In this document: in pieces, positions 5,193 to 24,638 of the stretch
Numbering within the stretch: the stretch's first letter is position 1
Layout: each line of letters opens with the position of its first letter
The notes under the pieces: model-generated
Databases searched by the model: none
What the model was told of the DNA's origin: nothing
Seen by the model: the letters and a program-made list of their open reading frames with translations, nothing else
Assembly (NCBI GenBank): GCA_001783695.1
Contig: MFNE01000026.1
Coordinates: forward strand, 190,192-228,317
Direction: 5' to 3'
DNA from: Candidatus Lambdaproteobacteria bacterium RIFOXYD2_FULL_50_16
GTDB lineage: Bacteria; SAR324; XYD2-FULL-50-16
Length of the DNA stretch: 38,126 nt
Program-made: the position numbers and the translations under genes

Positions 5193-6173
5193 TTAAACCC
5201 TCCCCTTGGCAGGAGCGATCTTAGTTTTAAGAGAAAAATAGATTAGGGCTCCAGGCATAAAAGCCAAGATTTGCAGGATCATATAAAAGTTAAAAACATC
5301 GGCCCCCCCATGATAACCGTAGAGTCCATAAAGTTGATCAAAAGCCGCATGCCCCAACCCCGCACCACCCGGTGCCAGCGGGATTACCGTAGCTATAAGA
5401 CCCAAAGGCATCAGCAGCATTTGTGGTAAAAGCTCCATTGATTCAATCCCAACAAGGGGGCAGAGCAGGTAAAACAAGCTGGCCACAAAGCTATGGATGA
5501 TAACGGTTAAAAACAAGGTTTGAAACAATATAGCCGGATGGTCCTCGAATTGTTTGAAACTTCGATAAATGGAAATTAAGTTTGGACCTAAGGGCATTTT
5601 TGTCAAAAGCCGGATTACCGGGTCTTTGCCCGCGGGAAAACGGATTAAAACAAGACTATAAAAACAAATAGTAAAGCCAGCCAAGGCGACAATAACCCAA
5701 CCGATTCCCGAAAAACCGGGGGTGCTAAGCCAGTGAGGGTTAAAGGCCAAGGATAAACTAGCCATCACCACCAAACCAAAAAGCCCGGTAAAACGATCTA
5801 AAACTAAAGAGGTTAACGCCTTGGTTTTTTGGCCTTCTTCGCCTGGTTGAATCACATAAAGCGCTTTGACCAAGTCACCTGTGACGGCGCCGGGTAAGGC
5901 GGTGTTAAAAAAGAACCCAATCCAGCAGACCCCATGGATACGTCTAAAGGGTTGATTGAGTCCGACCACGCCTAAAAAAAGTCTCCAGCGCCAGGTATTA
6001 AGGGGCAAAAAAACTAGAAACATCCCGGCTAAAAGTAGCCCAAAAAATCCAGGCCGATCTATTAAAAGTCCCAAACGCCCGAGGTCAAGTTTGCCAGTAG
6101 TGATCAGGTAGTAAAACAACCCAATCGTGACCACACCTTTAAAAATCCAATTTACTATCGCGCGTAGATTCAT
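5193..6173 (-). CDS. YbhN/LPG-synthase-TM-like membrane protein
   Basis: An integral membrane protein of about 326 residues with some seven or eight hydrophobic helices. The pattern resembles the flippase-like transmembrane domain of lysylphosphatidylglycerol synthases (UPF0104/YbhN): a WRWRLFL segment after the second helix, FFFNTALPGAVTGDLVKALYV, LDRFTGLFGLVV, and a glycine/proline-rich PLAPGGAGLGHAAF near the C-terminus. The catalytic synthase domain is absent. I chose the ATG at 6173, one base after the stop of the upstream gene; a TTG at 6185 would add four residues and overlap that gene. Its neighbour is a glycosyltransferase, which suggests envelope lipid or glycan handling, but no substrate can be assigned. 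Confidence 0.8.
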   Translation of the reverse strand: MNLRAIVNWIFKGVVTIGLFYYLITTGKLDLGRLGLLIDRPGFFGLLLAGMFLVFLPLNTWRWRLFLGVVGLNQPFRRIHGVCWIGFFFNTALPGAVTGDLVKALYVIQPGEEGQKTKALTSLVLDRFTGLFGLVVMASLSLAFNPHWLSTPGFSGIGWVIVALAGFTICFYSLVLIRFPAGKDPVIRLLTKMPLGPNLISIYRSFKQFEDHPAILFQTLFLTVIIHSFVASLFYLLCPLVGIESMELLPQMLLMPLGLIATVIPLAPGGAGLGHAAFDQLYGLYGYHGGADVFNFYMILQILAFMPGALIYFSLKTKIAPAKGRV

Positions 6174-6174
6174 C

Positions 6175-8025
6175 TTATTTCTCAAACCCGACTAGTTCGT
6201 CTGGGCCAATCTCTTGGTCTTGGCGCTCTGCCTGCCACTTCGCCACTAACTCCCCAAAATGGTCGATGATCGCACCTGGAGCGGATTTCTTTTTTAAAAA
6301 AAGTTCGGATTGGTTAATCGCAAAAAAATCTAACATCTTGTGTTCTTTAACCAGCAACTTGACCTGGGGCTCTAATTGAAAGCCTTGGGCCCGATAAAGG
6401 GCGAGGAGTAAACCCGAGATCCGGTAACTTGGGGAGGTTTCGATTTGGGAAGTGGTGTAATCCTCAATCACTTTTAAAAATTTAGCCCCGTTGGCCGAAC
6501 CTGCGCCTAAATAATAGCGGTGAACCAAGGCAAAAGAGACAAAGTAAGCCCACCCCTCTGAATAATCGGCCAAAATCTTGGTTTTTCCTGGTCCACGAGT
6601 GTTGGTAAGGCCCGCCAGCCGAAATGCGATCCTAGAGCAGTTTAAAAGGTCGGTTAAATTTTCGTTTAAGAGTTCTAGGCTAGTTTTAAGGGCTTTGATC
6701 CGGGTGGCTTCTTTGAACCGGACTGCGGACTCGCTGGCTAGCACCTTATCTATTTCTTGGTTTAGTCTAAAACCCATTTCATAAAGTTTGGCGTAGAGGC
6801 TATGGCGGTATTGGTCTAAATACCGGGCGATCCACTTTTCTGGCTTTGAACCCTTAGGAAGGTTGTCTAGGAGACCGCGCTGCCATACCCAAAGGGGGAA
6901 CCGGGCGAGTTCATCTTTTTGTTCCTGACTGAGGTGGGCTCCTTCGATTAAATGGAGTTTGACCCAGCCCCGCTTTCGAAGTTGTTGGCCGCGCTCTCTG
7001 ATGGTGCGCTTCCAAAGGTGCGCTAAATCAGGGTTTAAGTCTATTTCTTGGTGGGCCAATTGGTCAAGCCAATGATAACATTCGACCAATTCCCCCAAAT
7101 GCCCGGTGGCCAACTGCAACCGATCTTCGAGGGCATGGAAAAGGTTCCATTGTTTGGTTTCTTTAAAGAAATCGAAGTTTTTTTGCTCATGAGGTAGAAT
7201 CAGACCACCGCGAGGTAGCATATGATCCATCTGGCCGACGAGTTGGTCAAAAAAAACTTGATCATCCGCCTTTAGCCGCTCAATCACCTTGGTAAACCCG
7301 CGTTCGATCAAAGACGCCGCTTGGGGCTGGTGGCTTTTATTTTCGGACAGGGTCTTAAATAGGGCCTTTTGCCCCTGCTCTCGTGCTTTTGGCCCTTTAA
7401 AGCCCCTGGCTATGGCTTCTTGGTCGTAGTAAGCCTCTAGCTTTGGGTCAAGGTCGCCTAAAAACCGTAAAAAATAGAGCTTTTCTTTAAAGTCAAAATC
7501 AATCGGAGCCGATTGATCGGGCATTAGGGAAAAAGGCGGGCGACTGGGGACGTTGGTGCTAAAAAAAAGGTGCCCAAAAAGTTTAGAACACAGCAGCCGA
7601 ACGGTTTTTATGACAACTTCGGTGGTTTTTATTTCTAAAGGCAACACCAACTGCACCACCGGTTGACCTGGGCCTAACACCAGTTTGGCTGCGGGCAGCT
7701 CCATAGAGCCGGCTTTTTCACCAGATTTCTTTTCCCACTCGGCAGGCCCATAAAATTCCACTTTAGGCGCCAATGAGTTAACCCTAAGCCCCGCTTCGGA
7801 GGCAATAGCAAAACAAGCCAGAGCAATTTTTTTAATCGCCTCTTCGGCCTTGGGGTCAAGCCGACTGGCGTAGAAACTTACCGGAATCGGATAAGTTTTT
7901 TCTTCTTTGTGGGCATCTGCCCGATCGAGTTGGGCTTTAAAACGCTCTTTTTCTTTAGGATCGAAGCGCGAATCTAAGAGCGAATCGCCGATTCCGCCAA
8001 AACGACTTCCCCCCGGGGCCTTCAT
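6175..8025 (-). CDS. Unrecognised 616-residue protein
   Basis: I do not recognise a family. The product is a charged, Lys/Gln/Leu-rich soluble protein of 616 residues without signal peptide or membrane helix. The first 160 residues look like a mixed alpha/beta domain ending in strand-like text (KLVLGPGQPVVQLVLPLEI). The rest looks mainly helical, with conserved-looking Trp and Tyr positions and a late segment YSEGWAYFVSFALVHRYYLG. No Cys cluster, P-loop or other nucleotide motif is visible. Its ATG overlaps the cyaY stop by one base (TGATG), so it is translationally coupled to cyaY, and its stop is one base before the YbhN-like gene. Confidence 0.7.
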   Translation of the reverse strand: MKAPGGSRFGGIGDSLLDSRFDPKEKERFKAQLDRADAHKEEKTYPIPVSFYASRLDPKAEEAIKKIALACFAIASEAGLRVNSLAPKVEFYGPAEWEKKSGEKAGSMELPAAKLVLGPGQPVVQLVLPLEIKTTEVVIKTVRLLCSKLFGHLFFSTNVPSRPPFSLMPDQSAPIDFDFKEKLYFLRFLGDLDPKLEAYYDQEAIARGFKGPKAREQGQKALFKTLSENKSHQPQAASLIERGFTKVIERLKADDQVFFDQLVGQMDHMLPRGGLILPHEQKNFDFFKETKQWNLFHALEDRLQLATGHLGELVECYHWLDQLAHQEIDLNPDLAHLWKRTIRERGQQLRKRGWVKLHLIEGAHLSQEQKDELARFPLWVWQRGLLDNLPKGSKPEKWIARYLDQYRHSLYAKLYEMGFRLNQEIDKVLASESAVRFKEATRIKALKTSLELLNENLTDLLNCSRIAFRLAGLTNTRGPGKTKILADYSEGWAYFVSFALVHRYYLGAGSANGAKFLKVIEDYTTSQIETSPSYRISGLLLALYRAQGFQLEPQVKLLVKEHKMLDFFAINQSELFLKKKSAPGAIIDHFGELVAKWQAERQDQEIGPDELVGFEK

Positions 8026-17270: not shown

Positions 17271-18377
17271 TCAGTTAAAGGGCGGAGTGATCTGTTCTTT
17301 AGGGGTCACCTGGAGGTCGTTTTGACGATTTTTAGGCAAATGAAGTGTGACCCGGTGTTCGATCTCGGAGTAATAACCAATCGGATCAAAACGGGCTTTG
17401 ACCAAAAGACCCCCTAGATCGTCCGTATCTGCCCAATACCGAATCCGGTGCGTATTCGATGGCCAACCGAATCCCTGGATTTCAACCTCAATTACCCCGC
17501 CAGTTTCTTGGTCCCAAAGCACCTTAAAAGATTGGGGTTTTTCGCTCATTTGCAACTCAATGCTTTTGATTCGGTCGTCAAAATAGGGTAGATCGGTCCG
17601 ATCATTTTTGAAATAGGGGCGCCTCGTCATAAAGGCCATGGTGGCCAGCACTATAAACAGCACCATCCCCCCAAGCATCATCGCTCTTTTTTTGGGGTCC
17701 TTTAAGGGATCCCCGCCTTTTTCTTGGGGGCGGACCAGTAGTAAATGGAAAAAAAAGCTCGAGGCCAGCACCAACCCTAAAGACCAGAAGGCATCTGTGG
17801 GAAAATGACCACCTTGGACCATCCGGGCCTTGCTAATAAAGACGCCATATACTAGCCCCCCAATGACCGCCCCACCAGCTGCGAGGGGTTGGGTTCGGTA
17901 AAAAGTGGCTAGCGAGATAAAAATAAAACCAGAGGTGCAGTGCCCACAAGGAAAAGACTCTCCTCGTCCTGGTGTTCCAGGCTGGTAAAAAGGTAGATAT
18001 TCCCAAGCTCCGCCAAACTCGACCACCTGTCTGGGTCTGGGGCGACCCCAATAGTCTTTTAAAATGGCGTTGATTAAAATCGTACCCCCAATCAATGCGG
18101 TTAAAAGCACCACCAGCCAAGACCGGCGATAAGGGGCCAATCGTTTTATCAGATAACTACCTGCCACTCCTAACCCAGCAATTAGGGTTAGAATTAAACT
18201 AGGTATCGTACCTTCCTCGTAAAGCCATTTGTAAGGTTGTTCTTCGGCCAGGAAAAAGCCACTTTCGTAATATTGGGAGACCCAGCGCCGATCAAGGTCG
18301 AAATATTCAGCGACCAATGATAGCAGCGTCCAGATAACTAGGAGCCCTAGGGGCCGCAAAAGACGTTTACCACTCAA
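17271..18377 (-). CDS. PAP2-family membrane phosphatase
   Basis: A 368-residue integral membrane acid phosphatase of the PAP2 type, which removes phosphate from lipid phosphates or undecaprenyl pyrophosphate on the outer face of the inner membrane. The three motifs are KDYWGRPRP, FPCGHCTSG and SKARMVQGGHFPTDAFWS, carrying the catalytic residues including the His of GGHF. In the second motif the usual PSGH reads PCGH. After six helices there is one more helix and a C-terminal domain of about 120 residues with Trp-rich strands, unlike plain PAP2 proteins. The start is TTG, three bases after the small membrane gene. Lipid A or undecaprenyl substrates are both possible. Confidence 0.85.
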   Translation of the reverse strand: MSGKRLLRPLGLLVIWTLLSLVAEYFDLDRRWVSQYYESGFFLAEEQPYKWLYEEGTIPSLILTLIAGLGVAGSYLIKRLAPYRRSWLVVLLTALIGGTILINAILKDYWGRPRPRQVVEFGGAWEYLPFYQPGTPGRGESFPCGHCTSGFIFISLATFYRTQPLAAGGAVIGGLVYGVFISKARMVQGGHFPTDAFWSLGLVLASSFFFHLLLVRPQEKGGDPLKDPKKRAMMLGGMVLFIVLATMAFMTRRPYFKNDRTDLPYFDDRIKSIELQMSEKPQSFKVLWDQETGGVIEVEIQGFGWPSNTHRIRYWADTDDLGGLLVKARFDPIGYYSEIEHRVTLHLPKNRQNDLQVTPKEQITPPFN

Positions 18378-18380
18378 AAC

Positions 18381-18545
18381 TTATTCCCGGTCACGGGTAT
18401 TTTTTTTGGGACTGATCCATCCTTTTTCCATCAGCCAGTAGTCAAAGCCCTTAGGAAACATCTTGGCCCAGGTTTTAATGATCTTGTACCCGACCATCAA
18501 TAAAGCGATCAGGAACATCAGGTCCACAATCATCAGTTGGTTCAT
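18381..18545 (-). CDS. Small membrane protein, 54 residues
   Basis: A short open frame with ATG at 18545, TAA at 18383-18381 and GGAGG (18554-18550) four bases upstream, so translation is well supported. The product begins MNQLMIVDLMFLIALLMVGY, a single hydrophobic helix of about 20 residues, followed by a basic/aromatic tail (KIIKTWAKMFPKGFDYWLMEKGW). It lies three bases before the PAP2 start and shares its promoter. It may be a small subunit or modulator of the membrane enzymes downstream. No family is recognised. Confidence 0.6.
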   Translation of the reverse strand: MNQLMIVDLMFLIALLMVGYKIIKTWAKMFPKGFDYWLMEKGWISPKKNTRDRE

Positions 18546-18565
18546 CGTTCCTCCGGGTTTTGTTA

Positions 18566-18594
18566 TCTGTAAGGACTTAGGCGTGGTTTGTCAA
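18566..18594 (-). promoter_or_regulatory. Promoter of the small-membrane-protein/PAP2 operon
   Basis: A perfect TTGACA -35 box (minus strand, 18594-18589) is followed after 17 bases by TACAGA (18571-18566), a weaker -10. The start would be near 18559, giving a very short leader that holds GGAGG. Confidence 0.4.
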
Positions 18595-18658
18595 AGCCTC
18601 GCCCTTGCCAAGACCATCTCGAATAAGGAATATTAGAAGGTCCCAGCTACGGAGCAAA

Positions 18659-19423
18659 ATGACGTCCTTGATCCTTGCCATTAGAACCCTGACCCGGTTA
18701 CCCATCCCTGGGGAACATAAAGGCGCTTTAGCCCAATCCTTGCCCTATTTCCCATTTGTCGGTGCGATTTTGGCCGCCCTATTGTTGGGGACTGGGTATG
18801 TGTGGAGTCTCACCCCCTTTTTTGACTGGTACCGCGGACAGGCCTTAGTTTATGTTGTTTTGTTAGCCCTTTTAACCGGCGGGCTTCACCTAGACGGGCT
18901 GGCTGATTGGGCCGATAGTTTTGGTGCAGATGGGGATAAAGAGAGGGCCCTTCAAATCATGAAAGACCCTGGCCTTGGGGCCTTTGGGGCGGTGGCATTG
19001 GTATTATACCTACTTTTGCAGTTGGAGCTTATTACCAAGCTGCTAGAGATGGGCTTGGGGCTTTGGCTGTGGGTTTTATTGGTGTTGAGCCGCGGAATGA
19101 TGGTGGAGCTGATGTGTTTTTATCCAAACGCCAGGGGCTCTGGGCTCGGCCAAGCCTATATGGAAAGTGCTAACAAAACCCACCGACTCCTAGCGCAATT
19201 GTTTGCCCTGGTTTTGGTGTACCCATTTTTTGGGGCACCCGCCCTGTCGGCTTGGGGGGTGGCTTTTTTATGGACCCATTTTTTCGGCGTACTTTCAACC
19301 AAACGTCTTGGCGGGATTACGGGCGATCTAATTGGTGCTAATGGACTTTTGATTGAACTTATTCTGTTAATATTAGCCCTGATGCAACGGCCTGTTTGGG
19401 CTCCAATCTGGGGGGGCTGGTGA
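18659..19423 (+). CDS. cobS: Adenosylcobinamide-GDP ribazoletransferase
   Basis: Membrane enzyme that joins adenosylcobinamide-GDP with alpha-ribazole (phosphate) to complete cobalamin. The family core is TGGLHLDGLADWADSFG followed by ALQIMKDPGLGAFGA, and about six hydrophobic helices are visible. I chose ATG 18659 because GGAG (18651-18654) lies four bases upstream and the product then begins MTSLILAIRTLTRLPIP, as in other CobS proteins (254 residues). An upstream ATG at 18605 would add 18 basic residues not seen in the family. It opens the cobalamin cluster and overlaps cobQ by one base (TGATG). Confidence 0.95.
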   Translation: MTSLILAIRTLTRLPIPGEHKGALAQSLPYFPFVGAILAALLLGTGYVWSLTPFFDWYRGQALVYVVLLALLTGGLHLDGLADWADSFGADGDKERALQIMKDPGLGAFGAVALVLYLLLQLELITKLLEMGLGLWLWVLLVLSRGMMVELMCFYPNARGSGLGQAYMESANKTHRLLAQLFALVLVYPFFGAPALSAWGVAFLWTHFFGVLSTKRLGGITGDLIGANGLLIELILLILALMQRPVWAPIWGGW

Positions 19424-20820
19424 TGACGAGCCTAGCGATTTTGGGAACCGGTTCGGACGTGGGGAAGTCCTTGGTGACCGCTTTGATTTTGCGCCTCTTA
19501 AAAGACCGAGGTATTCAAGCGGCTCCCTTTAAGGCCCAAAACATGTCCAACAATAGTGCAGTTACCTCTGAGGGCCTAGAAATAGGCCGCGCTCAATGGA
19601 TGCAGGCAACGGCAGCGGGCCTGCTTCCAGAGGTGCTGATGAACCCGGTTTTAGTAAAACCGCAAGCTGATCATTCCAGTCAATTGGTGGTGATGGGCCG
19701 TCCCGTGGGGCAATTGGTTCGAGAACGCTATTTTGAAAGGGCTGAAGAATTAAAGGCTCAAGCTTATTCGGCATTCAGGACCCTTCGAGAAAAATACCCC
19801 AATATTGTGGTGGAGGGCGCTGGTAGTCTGGCGGAGGTAAATTTGCGGCACCGGGACTACATTAACCTGGGACTGGCCAGGGAATTTAATATCCCGGTGA
19901 TCCTAGTGGCCGATATCGATCGAGGTGGGGTGTTTGCCCAAATCGTGGGAAGTTTAGAGATTATCTCTCCAGAGGACCGAGCCCTTATAAAGGGAATCTT
20001 GATCAACCGCTTTCGGGGCAGCGCCTTATTGTTTCAAGACGGAATCGACTGGATCGAAAAACGTACAGGCTTGCCGGTTTTGGGGCTTTTGCCTTACCGC
20101 AAAGACCTAAAGTTACCGGCTGAAGACGCGGTGGTGCTTGATCAATTGGTCGAGCCGCACAGGCCCACAGGCCCGGCGATAGCGGTGATCGCCTACCCTC
20201 GTATCTCCAATTTTACTGACTTTGACCCTTTGCAAAATATCCCTGGTATTGAACTGCATTACCTTAGAAAACCCAGGAACCTAAGCGATTATAGCCTTGT
20301 TGTCCTGCCCGGAAGCAAAGCGGTTGTTGCCGATCTGGATTGGTTAAGGGGGGAGGGATGGCTTGAAGAAATCGAAAGTTACCGAAGGGATGGGGGTAAA
20401 ATTTTGGGGGTGTGTGGTGGGTTTCAGATGATGGGCCAACGTATCGAAGACCCGTTAGGGGTCGAGTCTGACCAACCCTTTGCCCAAGGCCTTGGCTTGA
20501 TCCCGATGGTCACGGTTTTTTCAGCGCATAAGGTGCTTAAACAAAAAGGTCCAGCTTACGAGATACACCAAGGACAAAGTCATTTTTTAAGCGACCATCA
20601 ACCCTGGCTGGGTGACGGTTGGCGAGGGGATGAAGGATGGGGAAGTTACCAACACGGGCTTTTTGAAGACCAGATTTTTTTAGCCCAATTTTTAAAACAA
20701 GCATTAGGACTAGACCTAGAACTACCAGCGCAATCTGATCCTTATCAAAACTTGGCTGAAGCCTTGGGACCCCACTTAGACCTGGACCGATTGATACAGA
20801 TTATGGAGGCCGGGGCGTGA
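19423..20820 (+). CDS. cobQ: Cobyric acid synthase
   Basis: Glutamine- and ATP-dependent enzyme that amidates four carboxyl groups of adenosylcobyrinic acid diamide. The N-terminal dethiobiotin-synthetase-like half has GTGSDVGKS, GAGSLAEVNL and DIDRGGVFAQ. The C-terminal class I-like amidotransferase half has the nucleophile C331 (GVCGGFQMMG) and H411 (GSYQHGLF). Length 465 residues is slightly short of the usual 480-500 but complete. I start at ATG 19423, overlapping the cobS TGA; a start at 19396 would lie inside cobS. It overlaps cobD by four bases (GTGA), so the genes form one operon. Confidence 0.96.
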   Translation: MTSLAILGTGSDVGKSLVTALILRLLKDRGIQAAPFKAQNMSNNSAVTSEGLEIGRAQWMQATAAGLLPEVLMNPVLVKPQADHSSQLVVMGRPVGQLVRERYFERAEELKAQAYSAFRTLREKYPNIVVEGAGSLAEVNLRHRDYINLGLAREFNIPVILVADIDRGGVFAQIVGSLEIISPEDRALIKGILINRFRGSALLFQDGIDWIEKRTGLPVLGLLPYRKDLKLPAEDAVVLDQLVEPHRPTGPAIAVIAYPRISNFTDFDPLQNIPGIELHYLRKPRNLSDYSLVVLPGSKAVVADLDWLRGEGWLEEIESYRRDGGKILGVCGGFQMMGQRIEDPLGVESDQPFAQGLGLIPMVTVFSAHKVLKQKGPAYEIHQGQSHFLSDHQPWLGDGWRGDEGWGSYQHGLFEDQIFLAQFLKQALGLDLELPAQSDPYQNLAEALGPHLDLDRLIQIMEAGA

Positions 20821-21872
20821 CCCATTATCAGCATGGCGGGGAGGCCTATAAAGCCTTTGCCCGTTATGGCCTGCCCCCTAAACAGGTGATTGATTTTAGC
20901 GTCAATCTCTCCCCTTTGGGCTTGCCTTTAGGGCTTAAGACGGCTTGGGCTAAATTAATAAACAGCCTAGCCCAATATCCAGACCCGGAAGGGGCCGGTC
21001 TTTTTGAGTATTATAACACGCTGTATCGATTAAGCGAAACCAACCTACTACCCCTAAACGGGAGCATCGAGGGGATTTATCTGCTTCCAGTCCATTTAGG
21101 ACTGAAACGGGTGCTAATCGCGCAGCCTGGCTTTTACGATTATGAAGCCGCTTGCAAGTTGGCCGGTGCAGAGATAAAACCTTGGCGACTCGACCTTGCT
21201 AACCAGTTTAGTTTTGCTGGTTTAGAAAAAGAGCTTGAGGGCGTGGACGCGGTGATTTTGGGTAGCCCTCACAATCCGACGGGACAGAGCCTAAAGCCTA
21301 CACAAATTCTGAAACTTTGCTCGACCTATCCACATATAAACTTTATTATAGATCAAGCCTTTATAAATCTTAGTTGTGACCCAAAAAGCTTGAGTTTACT
21401 GGGGCCCGAGTGCCTAAGGCCCAATCTCTGGGTTTTACATTCGTTAACCAAGGAATGGGCTTTGCCTGGTTTGCGTTTAGGGGCGCTGGTGGGGCCTGAT
21501 TCGGAAATTAGGGCCTTAAAAGCTAAATTGCCCCCTTGGCGGCTGTCGGGGCCTGCTTTGGCGGCTATCCCTTATTTATTAGGGGACACAGATTATTTAA
21601 AACAGGTTTACTCAACCCTCAAGCAGGAACGATCGCGCCTATTTTCTGAGTTAGCTTCTAACCCAAAACTTACCTTGATCCCCACTGACGCCAACTTCTT
21701 TTTGGCTCGTTATAACCCCCAAGAGGGCTTAGACCCCCTACTAAAGAGTGCCCTAGAAGCAGGGCTGATGCTTCGGGATGGGCGCAATTTTAAGGGACTA
21801 GAAGGCGCCTGGTTCCGCTTCGCTATTTTGGCACCTGCCCAAAACGACCGTTTATTAGAGTTTTTAAAATGA
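20817..21872 (+). CDS. cobD: CobD/CobC-type threonine-phosphate decarboxylase
   Basis: PLP enzyme of the aminotransferase fold that makes (R)-1-amino-2-propanol phosphate for the nucleotide loop of cobalamin. The PLP lysine is K212 in HSLTKEWALPGLRLG, nearly the signature of Salmonella CobD. The N-terminal HGGEAYKAF...IDFSVNLSPLG is also typical, and GSPHNPTGQ binds the cofactor. It has 351 residues. The start is GTG with GGAGG seven bases upstream, overlapping cobQ; its end overlaps cobU by four bases (ATGA). The exact substrate (L-Thr-P or L-Thr) is inferred from the family. Confidence 0.92.
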   Translation: MTHYQHGGEAYKAFARYGLPPKQVIDFSVNLSPLGLPLGLKTAWAKLINSLAQYPDPEGAGLFEYYNTLYRLSETNLLPLNGSIEGIYLLPVHLGLKRVLIAQPGFYDYEAACKLAGAEIKPWRLDLANQFSFAGLEKELEGVDAVILGSPHNPTGQSLKPTQILKLCSTYPHINFIIDQAFINLSCDPKSLSLLGPECLRPNLWVLHSLTKEWALPGLRLGALVGPDSEIRALKAKLPPWRLSGPALAAIPYLLGDTDYLKQVYSTLKQERSRLFSELASNPKLTLIPTDANFFLARYNPQEGLDPLLKSALEAGLMLRDGRNFKGLEGAWFRFAILAPAQNDRLLEFLK

Positions 21873-22393
21873 AACCACTGGTTACCCTTTTGACGGGCGG
21901 TGCCCGTAGTGGCAAAAGCCAAAAAGCCTTAGAACTGGCCCAAAAAGCCAAACACCCCTTGTTTGTGGCCACAGGCCAAGCGTTCGATGCTGAGATGAAG
22001 GACCGAATCGCACGACACCAAAGAGAAAGAGGCCCCCAGTTTGGCTTGGTAGAGGAGCCCACCGAATTAGCCCAGGTTTTACAAAGGCTTCCTCAAAATA
22101 CGGATTTGGTTTTGATTGATTGCCTGACCCTATGGCTTAACAACCTTATCTATCAAGAGGGGGAGCAGGAGCGATATCCCCAAGTTGAGGCCTTGTTACT
22201 TATCCTGAAAAAACCACCTTGCCCAGTCATTCTGGTGACCAATGAATTAGGTTTAGGGATGGTGCCCGAAAACCCGTTGGCTCGGCGGTTTCGCGACCTG
22301 CAAGGTCGGCTCAACCAAGAGGTAGCGGCCCTGGCCGATCAAGTATTGATGATGGTTAGTGGTCTGCCCATTTTTTTAAAATCAGTTGATTGA
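21869..22393 (+). CDS. cobU: Adenosylcobinamide kinase/guanylyltransferase
   Basis: Bifunctional enzyme that phosphorylates adenosylcobinamide and attaches GMP to give adenosylcobinamide-GDP. The P-loop is GGARSGKS (residues 10-17). DRIARHQRERG contains H50, a good candidate for the GMP-accepting His. DCLTLWLNNL and VTNELGLGMVPENPLARRFRD are further signatures. At 174 residues it is full length. It overlaps cobD by four bases. The cobalamin riboswitch follows about ten bases after its stop, so cobU and the genes before it are not under that element. Confidence 0.95.
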   Translation: MKPLVTLLTGGARSGKSQKALELAQKAKHPLFVATGQAFDAEMKDRIARHQRERGPQFGLVEEPTELAQVLQRLPQNTDLVLIDCLTLWLNNLIYQEGEQERYPQVEALLLILKKPPCPVILVTNELGLGMVPENPLARRFRDLQGRLNQEVAALADQVLMMVSGLPIFLKSVD

Positions 22394-22403
22394 CAATCTA
22401 GTT

Positions 22404-22530
22404 TCGAGTGCTCAAGTTACTAGTTCCAGGAGGAAGTAGGGTGCGAATCCCTCACTGGCGCGCAACGGTGATGCAGCTTGCTGACAAGTCCGATCTTCCC
22501 TCATCCTCGCGTACAGGAGACTTGCCAGGG
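22404..22530 (+). ncRNA. Cobalamin riboswitch aptamer
   Basis: The stretch between cobU and cobT shows the conserved order of a B12 aptamer: GAGGAAGTAGGGTGCGAATCC (22429-22450 region), then GCGCGCAACGGTGATG (B12-box-like core, about 22458-22473), GACAAGTCCGA (22483-22493), and CAGGAGACTTGCC (22514-22526). Cobalamin binding should reduce expression of cobT and cbiB. It is placed inside the cluster rather than at its head. The fold was judged by eye. Confidence 0.85.
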
Positions 22531-22535
22531 CTTGC

Positions 22536-22578
22536 CCGGGAATCTCCCGGAGATCAAAAACGGCGGACCCAATCCGCC
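22536..22578 (+). promoter_or_regulatory. Riboswitch expression platform with two hairpins
   Basis: CCGGGA (22536-22541) pairs with TCCCGG (22545-22550) around ATC, and GGCGGA (22562-22567) pairs with TCCGCC (22573-22578) around CCCAA. No T-run follows the second stem, and the cobT start lies 17 bases on. This favours control of translation initiation over termination. Confidence 0.5.
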
Positions 22579-22595
22579 CAAAAGTGAGCCCAAAA

Positions 22596-23657
22596 ATGGA
22601 ACTTAAAAATCTTCTTCAACAGATTAAGCCCGTCGATCAAAGCCTTAAACCCGCTCTTTTAGCCCATCAAGCGGACCTGACCAAACCTGCCGGCGCCCTA
22701 GGGCGTTTGGAAGAAATTGCGGTCCAATTGGGATTGATCCAAGGAAAGATTGAACTCAATCTAGGCAAAAAACGAATCTATTGTTTCGCGGGAGACCATG
22801 GGATCGCGGACGCTGGAGTTTCGGCTTTTCCACAAGCGGTGACCCCACAGATGGTTTTGAATATGCTTAGCGGCGGAGCGGCGATTAATCAGCTAACAGA
22901 GCAAGCCGGGGCTGAATTATTGGTGGTGGATATGGGGGTCAAAGCTGAATTTGAGGACCATCCCCGTCTGATCAAGGCCAAGGTGGCTTTGGGAACGGCC
23001 AACTTTTTAGAACAACCAGCCATGACCTTGGCTCAAACGCTCCAAGCGGTAACCACCGGGTTTGAACTAGCTACGCAAGCCCAGGCAGATGGGGTTAGAC
23101 TCTTGGGAACCGGGGAAATGGGGATCGCGAACACCACCTCCGCCGCAGCCCTAATGTCGGCTCTACTGCCGATCCCTCCTGCGCAAATTGTGGGTCGAGG
23201 TACCGGGATTGATGACCCAACCCTGGCTCATAAAATAAAGGTTATCGAAACCGCGCTCATCAAACACCAAAGAGCCTTGGCAACCCCGCTTGATATCCTT
23301 GCTGCCCTGGGTGGGTTAGAGATTGCGGGGATTGTGGGGTTAATCTTGGGTGCGGCGGCGAATCAGGTAGCGATTTTGGTAGATGGGTTTATTAGCTCGG
23401 CGGCGGCCTTAGTGGCGCTTAGGCTCAAGCCGGAAGTGGCGGGCTACCTCTTTTTTAGTCACCTTTCTGCCGAACAGGGGCATAAATTATTTATCCAAAA
23501 AATGGGGATTACTCCTTTGATTGACCTGGACTTACGTCTTGGGGAAGGCACTGGCGCGGCTATCGCGATGAATTTATTAGAGGCGGCGGTTTTTTGCCAT
23601 AACCGGATGGCCACCTTCTCGGGGGCTAAGGTTTCGACCAAGTCTTTAAATATTTAG
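22596..23657 (+). CDS. cobT: Nicotinate-nucleotide:DMB phosphoribosyltransferase
   Basis: Activates 5,6-dimethylbenzimidazole to alpha-ribazole phosphate for the lower ligand of cobalamin. Signatures are KPAGALGRLEE, GDHGIADAGVSAFPQAVTPQM, GTGEMGIANTTSAAAL and SHLSAEQGHK, where E293 corresponds to the catalytic Glu317 of the Salmonella enzyme. I favour ATG 22596 (353 residues), with GTGAG at 22584-22588 as a poor ribosome site; a GTG at 22584 in frame is possible. The gene follows the cobalamin riboswitch and precedes cbiB by 15 bases. Confidence 0.95.
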   Translation: MELKNLLQQIKPVDQSLKPALLAHQADLTKPAGALGRLEEIAVQLGLIQGKIELNLGKKRIYCFAGDHGIADAGVSAFPQAVTPQMVLNMLSGGAAINQLTEQAGAELLVVDMGVKAEFEDHPRLIKAKVALGTANFLEQPAMTLAQTLQAVTTGFELATQAQADGVRLLGTGEMGIANTTSAAALMSALLPIPPAQIVGRGTGIDDPTLAHKIKVIETALIKHQRALATPLDILAALGGLEIAGIVGLILGAAANQVAILVDGFISSAAALVALRLKPEVAGYLFFSHLSAEQGHKLFIQKMGITPLIDLDLRLGEGTGAAIAMNLLEAAVFCHNRMATFSGAKVSTKSLNI

Positions 23658-23672
23658 GGGCGCTAGCATAGA

Positions 23673-24638
23673 GTGGCTATAATCTTAGGGCTGATTTTAG
23701 ACCGTATTTTGGGTGACCCGGTTTACCGGTTTCACCCGGTACGGCTTTTGGGTTCTTGGGCGCTGTTTGTAGAATCCCGATTACGGGCGTATGAATACAC
23801 CGGGAGCCTCGCAGGCCTTGTTCAGCTTCTCTCGGTTCTTCCTTGGGTTCTAGGGCTGTTGTTGTTAGAAGCCTTCCTCAGGGGGCCTTACTACCTTGCC
23901 TTTGAGGTGTATCTGTTTTACAGCCTAATTGCTTGGGGAGATTTAAGGCGGCACGGAGTTCGTCTTTATCAAGCACTCCAAGCTGGTGACCTCTGTTTAG
24001 CGCAAAACCGGGCGCAAATGTTGGTCAGCCGAGACGTAAGTCAGATGGACTCGGGGGCCGCCGCAAGGGCCGGGATTGAATCCATTGCTGAAAACTGGGT
24101 CGATGGCTTTTTGGCTCCCCTGCTTTTTTTTCACTTATTTGGCCTACCAGGGCTTTTAATCTTTAAGTGGGTCAGCACCTTAGACAGTATGGTTGGTTAT
24201 AAAAACCCAAAATACTTGGCTTGGGGGGGTTGGGCGGCTAGATTGGACGATTTATTTGTTTTTATTCCGGCTCGTTTGTCCTGGTTACTACTTGGGTTCA
24301 CGGCCCTGCTGTTACCCAAATACCAGGGCTGGGCGGGCATACGTCTTGGTTTTTCGCAACACCACCTCCTGCCCTCTCCTAATTCAGGGTGGCCCGAAGC
24401 GACCGTAGCTGGCGCTTTGGGGGTTCGGCTTTTAGGCCCAGTTTACCGGGAAGGCCAGCCCCATGATTCACCTTGGATTGGGCTTCCCGAAGCCCCCGAA
24501 GCGGGCCAAGAACACCTAAAACAGACCCTTTGGCTTGCCGAAGGGGCTTGGGCTTTGGTGTTGATATTTGAGACTATATTAAATTGGCCGGGGTTAGTAA
24601 GGTGGTTTACCCTAGCCTTTGGGGCTGACCTAATATAA
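23673..24638 (+). CDS. cbiB: Adenosylcobinamide-phosphate synthase
   Basis: Membrane protein that joins adenosylcobyric acid with aminopropanol (phosphate) made by CobD. The N-terminal LDRILGDPVYRFHPVRLLG, central ESIAENWVDGFLAPLLF, and FKWVSTLDSMVGYKNPKY with WAARLDDLFVFIPARL are all characteristic. About five hydrophobic helices and 321 residues agree with the family. The start is GTG at 23673 with no close ribosome site; AGGGG lies 13 bases upstream. The gene ends the cobalamin cluster, and its stop overlaps a perfect TATAAT that may serve the ferredoxins. Confidence 0.93.
   Translation: MAIILGLILDRILGDPVYRFHPVRLLGSWALFVESRLRAYEYTGSLAGLVQLLSVLPWVLGLLLLEAFLRGPYYLAFEVYLFYSLIAWGDLRRHGVRLYQALQAGDLCLAQNRAQMLVSRDVSQMDSGAAARAGIESIAENWVDGFLAPLLFFHLFGLPGLLIFKWVSTLDSMVGYKNPKYLAWGGWAARLDDLFVFIPARLSWLLLGFTALLLPKYQGWAGIRLGFSQHHLLPSPNSGWPEATVAGALGVRLLGPVYREGQPHDSPWIGLPEAPEAGQEHLKQTLWLAEGAWALVLIFETILNWPGLVRWFTLAFGADLI

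Follow-up and report, generated by a model that had tools for sequence, protein, structure and literature searches.

Within the cob cluster studied here, cobT and cbiB probably make up a second transcription unit that begins with a compact, class IIb-like cobalamin riboswitch, and corrinoid binding is predicted to repress this unit. The window, which is the whole 38,126-nucleotide stretch that was analyzed, corresponds to positions 190192–228317 of contig C26 in a genome of 3.14 Mb. As given by the open reading frames and NCBIfam, the cluster runs on the plus strand in the order cobS (18659–19423), cobQ (19423–20820), a cobD-like gene (20817–21872), cobU (21869–22393, stop codon TGA at 22391–22393), a gap of 190 nt, cobT (22584–23657) and cbiB (23673–24638). 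The NCBIfam cut-offs are exceeded by cobS, cobQ, cobU (NF004469, 189.5 bits versus 161), cobT (TIGR03160, 441.1 bits versus 319.3) and cbiB (TIGR00380, 184.7 bits versus 165.9), whereas the cobD-like protein is slightly short of its own (275.8 versus 290.55). cobT starts at GTG 22584, with an alternative start at ATG 22596. The first four genes overlap one another, cobS and cobQ in TGATG (19421–19425), cobQ and the cobD-like gene in GTGA at 20817, and the cobD-like gene and cobU in ATGA at 21869; the spacing between cobT and cbiB is 15 nt. Upstream of cobS, no Rfam match at E ≤ 5 was found in 18200–18800.

At the gathering threshold, Rfam gave no match in the window. In a local scan (401 nt, 4227 families), RF00174 (Cobalamin) matched 22397–22543 on the plus strand with an E-value of 2.4e-6, at 31.3 bits versus a cut-off of 31.5; genome-wide, this element ranks second among the RF00174 matches (E 4.4e-6). 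To build one covariance model, R1, we aligned nine compact elements taken from seven genomes of the family to which this genome belongs, leaving the window element out. When R1 was run on the window, it matched 22415–22520 on the plus strand (87.4 bits, E 8.6e-21) and gave no second match there; a scan of all 3.14 Mb of the genome gave no other match at E ≤ 10. The original prediction had placed a cobalamin riboswitch between cobU and cobT, able to reach cobT and cbiB only, with no such element ahead of the four coupled genes, and on all these points it agrees with the R1 match, the covariation described below, the 15-nt spacing and the two negative scans. In the comparison it proposed with the Rfam cobalamin model, the score stays just under the cut-off.

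In a scan of 52 genomes from the class, R1 gave 17 matches with E < 1e-6 in 13 genomes, nine of the 17 being the elements that built the model. No genome of the window's own genus was among the relatives searched. These compact elements are a coherent group that Rfam mostly misses; counted under stricter filters, just 5 of the 17 attain a cut-off in any of three cobalamin families. On the window element, RF01482 (AdoCbl) scored 38.1 bits, below its cut-off of 50, and aligned at positions 25–96 of 149, and a search of the genome with RF01689 (AdoCbl-II, cut-off 36.5) under strict filters gave nothing in the window at E ≤ 1. We placed the window element in the wider cobalamin riboswitch clan by its structure, not by its RF00174 score.

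The aptamer core spans 22429–22499 on the plus strand (71 nt), with coordinates checked base by base. As supported by R1 and by covariation, it contains P3 (22429–22433/22495–22499), P4 (22438–22441/22449–22452), P5 (22456–22457/22463–22464), the P6 base (22466–22468/22490–22492) and P6 (22474–22476/22481–22483), the loop of P6 being 4 nt in length. L5 (GCGCG, 22458–22462) is the kissing partner of L13 (CGCGU, 22508–22512), with which it can form five pairs including one G-U. L13 belongs to the P13 hairpin (22504–22518, UCCU-CGCGUAC-AGGA), which is located by R1 and the alignment; the 3′ strand of P13 together with G22519 forms one Shine-Dalgarno-like AGGAG (22515–22519). The limits originally predicted, 22404–22595, contain the element but are too wide for it. 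Rfam aligns a strand of P13 as the B12 box (∼22514–22526); this alignment of the 3′ half was rejected, because comparison with the relatives, together with the pairing in P3 and the compensated pair in P6, gives 22486–22496 instead.

The features of the clan are present, including the P3–P6 four-way junction, the conserved P4 loop and the ACUGU/B12-box pairing, in which U-A is swapped for G-C in step. The window reads ACGGU and GUCCGA at the sites where most elements read ACUGU and GUCAGA; the odd bases, G22467 and C22491, form one compensated pair at the P6 base. Fourteen of the 17 elements have U-A at this pair, the other three have G-C, and none breaks it; the G-C carriers are the window element, the element that precedes a TonB receptor in G005 and the one that precedes metE in G008. 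When RNAalifold was run on the nine relatives alone, P3, P4 and P6 were recovered, whereas P5 and the B12-box region were paired otherwise. In the 10-sequence alignment, the named structure pairs 85.6% of the cells, compared to 37.9–50.4% when it is slid along the alignment; with 17 sequences, which were fitted to the structure and so lean towards it, the values are 90.5% and 36.6–56.8%, and double changes occur in 17 of 23 pairs (0 of 500 shuffles as high). The L5–L13 kissing loop is weaker than the helices: in the family register, 67.5% of its cells are paired in the 10 sequences and one pair carries double changes, from C-G to G-C or G-U. Energy models that include neither ligand nor pseudoknot put the aptamer fold about 6 kcal/mol above the free ensemble. 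A decayed or chance resemblance with no function would fit the score under the Rfam cut-off; with 87.4 bits from the independent R1, a compensated P6 pair, and P3, P4, P5 and L5/L13 all intact, we regard it as highly improbable. Judged by its covariation and its relatives, the element is a real, conserved cobalamin riboswitch, ordinary in kind.

Like RF00174, whose larger members are class I, the window element has the P3–P6 core junction, an equivalent of the B12 box and the L5–L13 kissing loop; different from it, the window element lacks P1/P2 and the P7–P12 extension, both class I features, and scores under the cut-off. According to PMC11260477, class IIb is marked by the absence of P8–P12, GGAA at J3/4 and UCU at J6/3. 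All three are found in the window, with GGAA at 22432–22435 and UCU at 22494–22496, although some of these bases could equally extend P3. Together with P13 close behind the core, they are shared with class IIb and RF01689; in contrast to this likeness, the window is unmatched by RF01689 at E ≤ 1 under strict filters. Because the class IIb features are all present, adenosylcobalamin is expected as the ligand, and we consider it the most likely one.

The cobU-riboswitch-cobT arrangement is also found in G002 (Candidatus Lambdaproteobacteria RIFOXYD2_FULL_56_26), which belongs to another genus of the same family. The G002 element scores 34.9 bits with RF01482 (cut-off 50) and 86.7 bits with R1, which it helped to build; like the window element, it is compact, has the same gene neighbors and is preceded by TTGACA over the cobU stop. 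By sequence, the nearest element (83% identity) is that of G005, which stands before a TonB receptor, not cobT; the identities to the TonB and cobT elements of G002 are 72.6% and 57.5%, respectively. Simple descent in place is thus not established, since the G002 cobT element is just 57.5% identical and TonB elements are closer. In G002, cobT and cbiB, which are 15 nt apart in the window, are separated by a second compact element (L066 5963–6077, minus strand), a TonB receptor (L066 3881–5836, minus strand) and further genes, pointing to an uptake cassette that was gained or lost along with its riboswitch. Both G002 leaders share one stretch containing GCATTCTGGCGT, well 3′ of P13 (L066, downstream of 7343–7463 and 5963–6077, both on the minus strand).

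When the best 80 of 488 cobT loci were searched for the motif, L086, which is that of G002, was the only one with cobU and cobT adjacent and an element directly between the two. In Dictyobacter vulcani (L127) and Tengunoibacter tsumagoiensis (L161), an element follows cobU, and about 2 kb then separate it from cobT; riboswitches placed within cob clusters are therefore not new in themselves. Among the open-licence matches listed for literature on Lambdaproteobacteria/SAR324 riboswitches and on internal cobT riboswitches, none dealt with this element. Within the R1 group, 15 of the 17 elements stand before cobT, cobS, cbiB, cbiK, cbiM, metE or a TonB receptor, and the remaining two before proteins with no Pfam match (E ≤ 1e-5). 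These two proteins (L172 762–2204 in G006; L077 3310–4755, minus strand, in G003) are alike, lipoprotein-like and 481–482 residues in size, and possibly are B12 genes not known before.

The idea of a separate transcript is strengthened beyond the original prediction by one −35-like hexamer, TTGACA, located over the cobU stop (22390–22395, plus strand). Seven of the 17 elements carry TTGACA within the 100 nt upstream (0.02 expected per element; P 2.4e-8), and the G005 element, an eighth, has TTGACT instead. In the window and in both G002 elements, it is 25–27 nt ahead of the R1 model start. The predicted transcript start, ∼22425, is right before P3; the −10 hexamer is poor, and a strict promoter scan gave no promoter. 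The hexamer over the cobU stop suggests that the element may have its own promoter and transcript.

Before cobT, no intrinsic terminator was found on the coding strand, and the hairpin there has no T-run. The hairpin at 22562–22578 was rejected as an intrinsic terminator for cobT, as its T-run is on the minus strand only; read on that strand, it is followed by GTTTTTG and is terminator-like. With no coding-strand terminator, control of cobT is probably translational, or by Rho. The original prediction had favored translational control from the missing T-run; the observation fits, while Rho is left as another route. In a transcriptional version, by Rho or otherwise, the ligand would leave a leader of ∼85 nt unread, and RNA polymerase would stop before or within cobT. 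The lack of an intrinsic terminator agrees with this, as do leaders of 86–650 nt ahead of the main gene in several relatives; these observations do not tell it apart from translational control. We regard transcriptional control as unlikely and keep Rho as a possible helper in the mechanism given below.

The AGGAG of P13 lies 64 nt ahead of the cobT GTG, so that its masking could act on cobT only indirectly, through some further link. cobT itself has no clear Shine-Dalgarno sequence, which says little, because such sequences are weak for many genes of the window. Downstream of P13, a stable three-way junction (22528–22591, plus strand) is predicted, in which GGGCUUGC (22528–22535) pairs with GUGAGCCC (22584–22591) and buries the GTG start; it includes the 22562–22578 hairpin. 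The fold has a z-score of −4.67 (0 of 200 shuffles). The cobT GTG is paired in both the free and the aptamer-bound models; among the 30 starts compared in the window, it ranks fifth from the lowest, and others are equally buried.

One candidate link is a short leader open reading frame. It starts at TTG 22522, is 21 codons in length (22522–22587, plus strand) and ends in TGA over the cobT GTG, as GTGA; it is a weak candidate, with a spacing of 2 nt from AGGAG. The alternative start, TTG 22532, gives 24 codons and lies 12 nt from AGGAG. If the riboswitch gated this leader and not cobT itself, a translating ribosome would open the junction that buries the GTG and re-initiate at GTGA, a reading that refines and does not contradict the preferred one. 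The AGGAG within the L13 hairpin, the missing cobT Shine-Dalgarno sequence, the frame ending over the cobT start and the burial of GTG in the junction all agree with it. The relatives support it as well: in 7 of the 17 elements, two of which (G030 and G031) are congeners, an ATG occurs at an offset of 11–14 nt, counted from where the 3′ strand of P13 begins. All seven ATGs open a short frame of 8–40 codons, not the main gene, which begins 98–650 nt past the element. Against background offsets of 20–59, the probability of this enrichment arising by chance is about 1e-5, or 1e-4 when the choice of offset window is allowed for. The seven cases are those at L083 3785–3915, L179 1986–2108 (minus strand), L072 4305–4439, L085 5650–5765, L169 321–435, L081 4792–4910 and L082 5482–5601, and the main genes behind them are cbiK, TonB receptors and cbiB.

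The window, however, has no start codon at offsets 11–14, and its TTG codons stand 2 and 12 nt from AGGAG. The burial of GTG is not unusual, and the leader peptides are dissimilar among the relatives. The GTGA overlap may be due to chance, since in the window A often comes right after a start codon (in 19 of the 32 starts listed, cobT GTG included). Similar anatomy was confirmed by experiment in the Mycobacterium tuberculosis ppe2 riboswitch (PMC11260477), where there are also one Shine-Dalgarno-like sequence in the L13 hairpin, a main gene with no clear Shine-Dalgarno sequence, an overlapping stop and start, and cob genes nearby. Different from the window candidate, which has TTG starts only, the ppe2 leader starts with AUG and its translation was shown experimentally; the ppe2 switch itself departs from its class. 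In Salmonella, one small open reading frame aiding a structured start is described in PMC8092293. The leader reading is supported in the relatives, and the window itself is just suggestive of it; for cobT, we consider it possible, though short of an even chance.

In the preferred mechanism, a corrinoid cofactor, most likely adenosylcobalamin, would bind the aptamer, upon which L5 and L13 would kiss and P13 would close. With P13 closed, AGGAG would be hidden in the 3′ side of the hairpin, ribosome loading on the leader of cobT would cease, and cobT-cbiB expression would drop, perhaps with the help of Rho. When the ligand is absent, P13 would open and cobT-cbiB would be expressed. cobS, cobQ, the cobD-like gene and cobU would be transcribed from one upstream promoter and not be switched by the cobT element.

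The sign of the response is not certain, because one activating cobT riboswitch is known. cobT riboswitches have been described in Alkalihalobacillus halodurans (PMC10653944) and Sporomusa ovata (PMC9600662); according to PMC10653944, that of A. halodurans is activating and responds to cobinamide, whereas the others tested repress. The window element might likewise sense cobinamide or an incomplete corrinoid and raise cobT, and the sole known activating corrinoid riboswitch (PMC10653944) is indeed upstream of cobT. The common target is cobT; the A. halodurans switch works with a terminator, its P13 being an antiterminator, whereas the window has no coding-strand terminator and its element sits inside a cob cluster. 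The nearest relatives precede TonB receptors and one group member (G008) precedes metE, which fits repression by an OFF switch. Activation of cobT would therefore surprise us.

The genome has one other cobalamin riboswitch (L001 1481–1604, minus strand; RF00174, 61.1 bits), which is large, of class I type and cut at the contig end. It heads cobB, cobA/cobO, cbiF, a chelatase-like gene, cbiC, cbiD, cbiE-T, cbiL, cbiG (in two reading frames) and cbiH (L001, L078). With the corrin-ring operon and cobT-cbiB each having a riboswitch, two of three pathway parts are under riboswitches. The original prediction had set final assembly apart from lower-base activation in the response to B12; the lack of an element before cobS fits such a split, but the corrin-ring operon is also riboswitched, so that the part without such control is limited to cobS, cobQ, the cobD-like gene and cobU. 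In addition, cbiB, which had been grouped with lower-base activation, is not a lower-base step. BluB, the dimethylbenzimidazole synthase, was not found over its cut-off in this genome (best 37.8 versus 150 bits).

With its own element, and with none before cobS, cobT-cbiB can answer B12 separately from the four preceding genes, and probably is adjusted separately from them. The B12 pathway of this organism would then be divided into parts that are each regulated on their own, with a class I type riboswitch for the corrin-ring operon, a compact one for cobT-cbiB, and neither for cobS, cobQ, the cobD-like gene and cobU. A broader proposal for this Lambdaproteobacteria family, tentative and rather doubtful, is that its compact riboswitches gate ribosome entry to leader open reading frames, so that leader translation, and not masking of the main start, relays the B12 signal; the window element would be an internal operon valve acting on cobT by re-initiation at GUGA. 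If these leaders are real, the family would provide a second, unrelated lineage beside the experimental case of M. tuberculosis.
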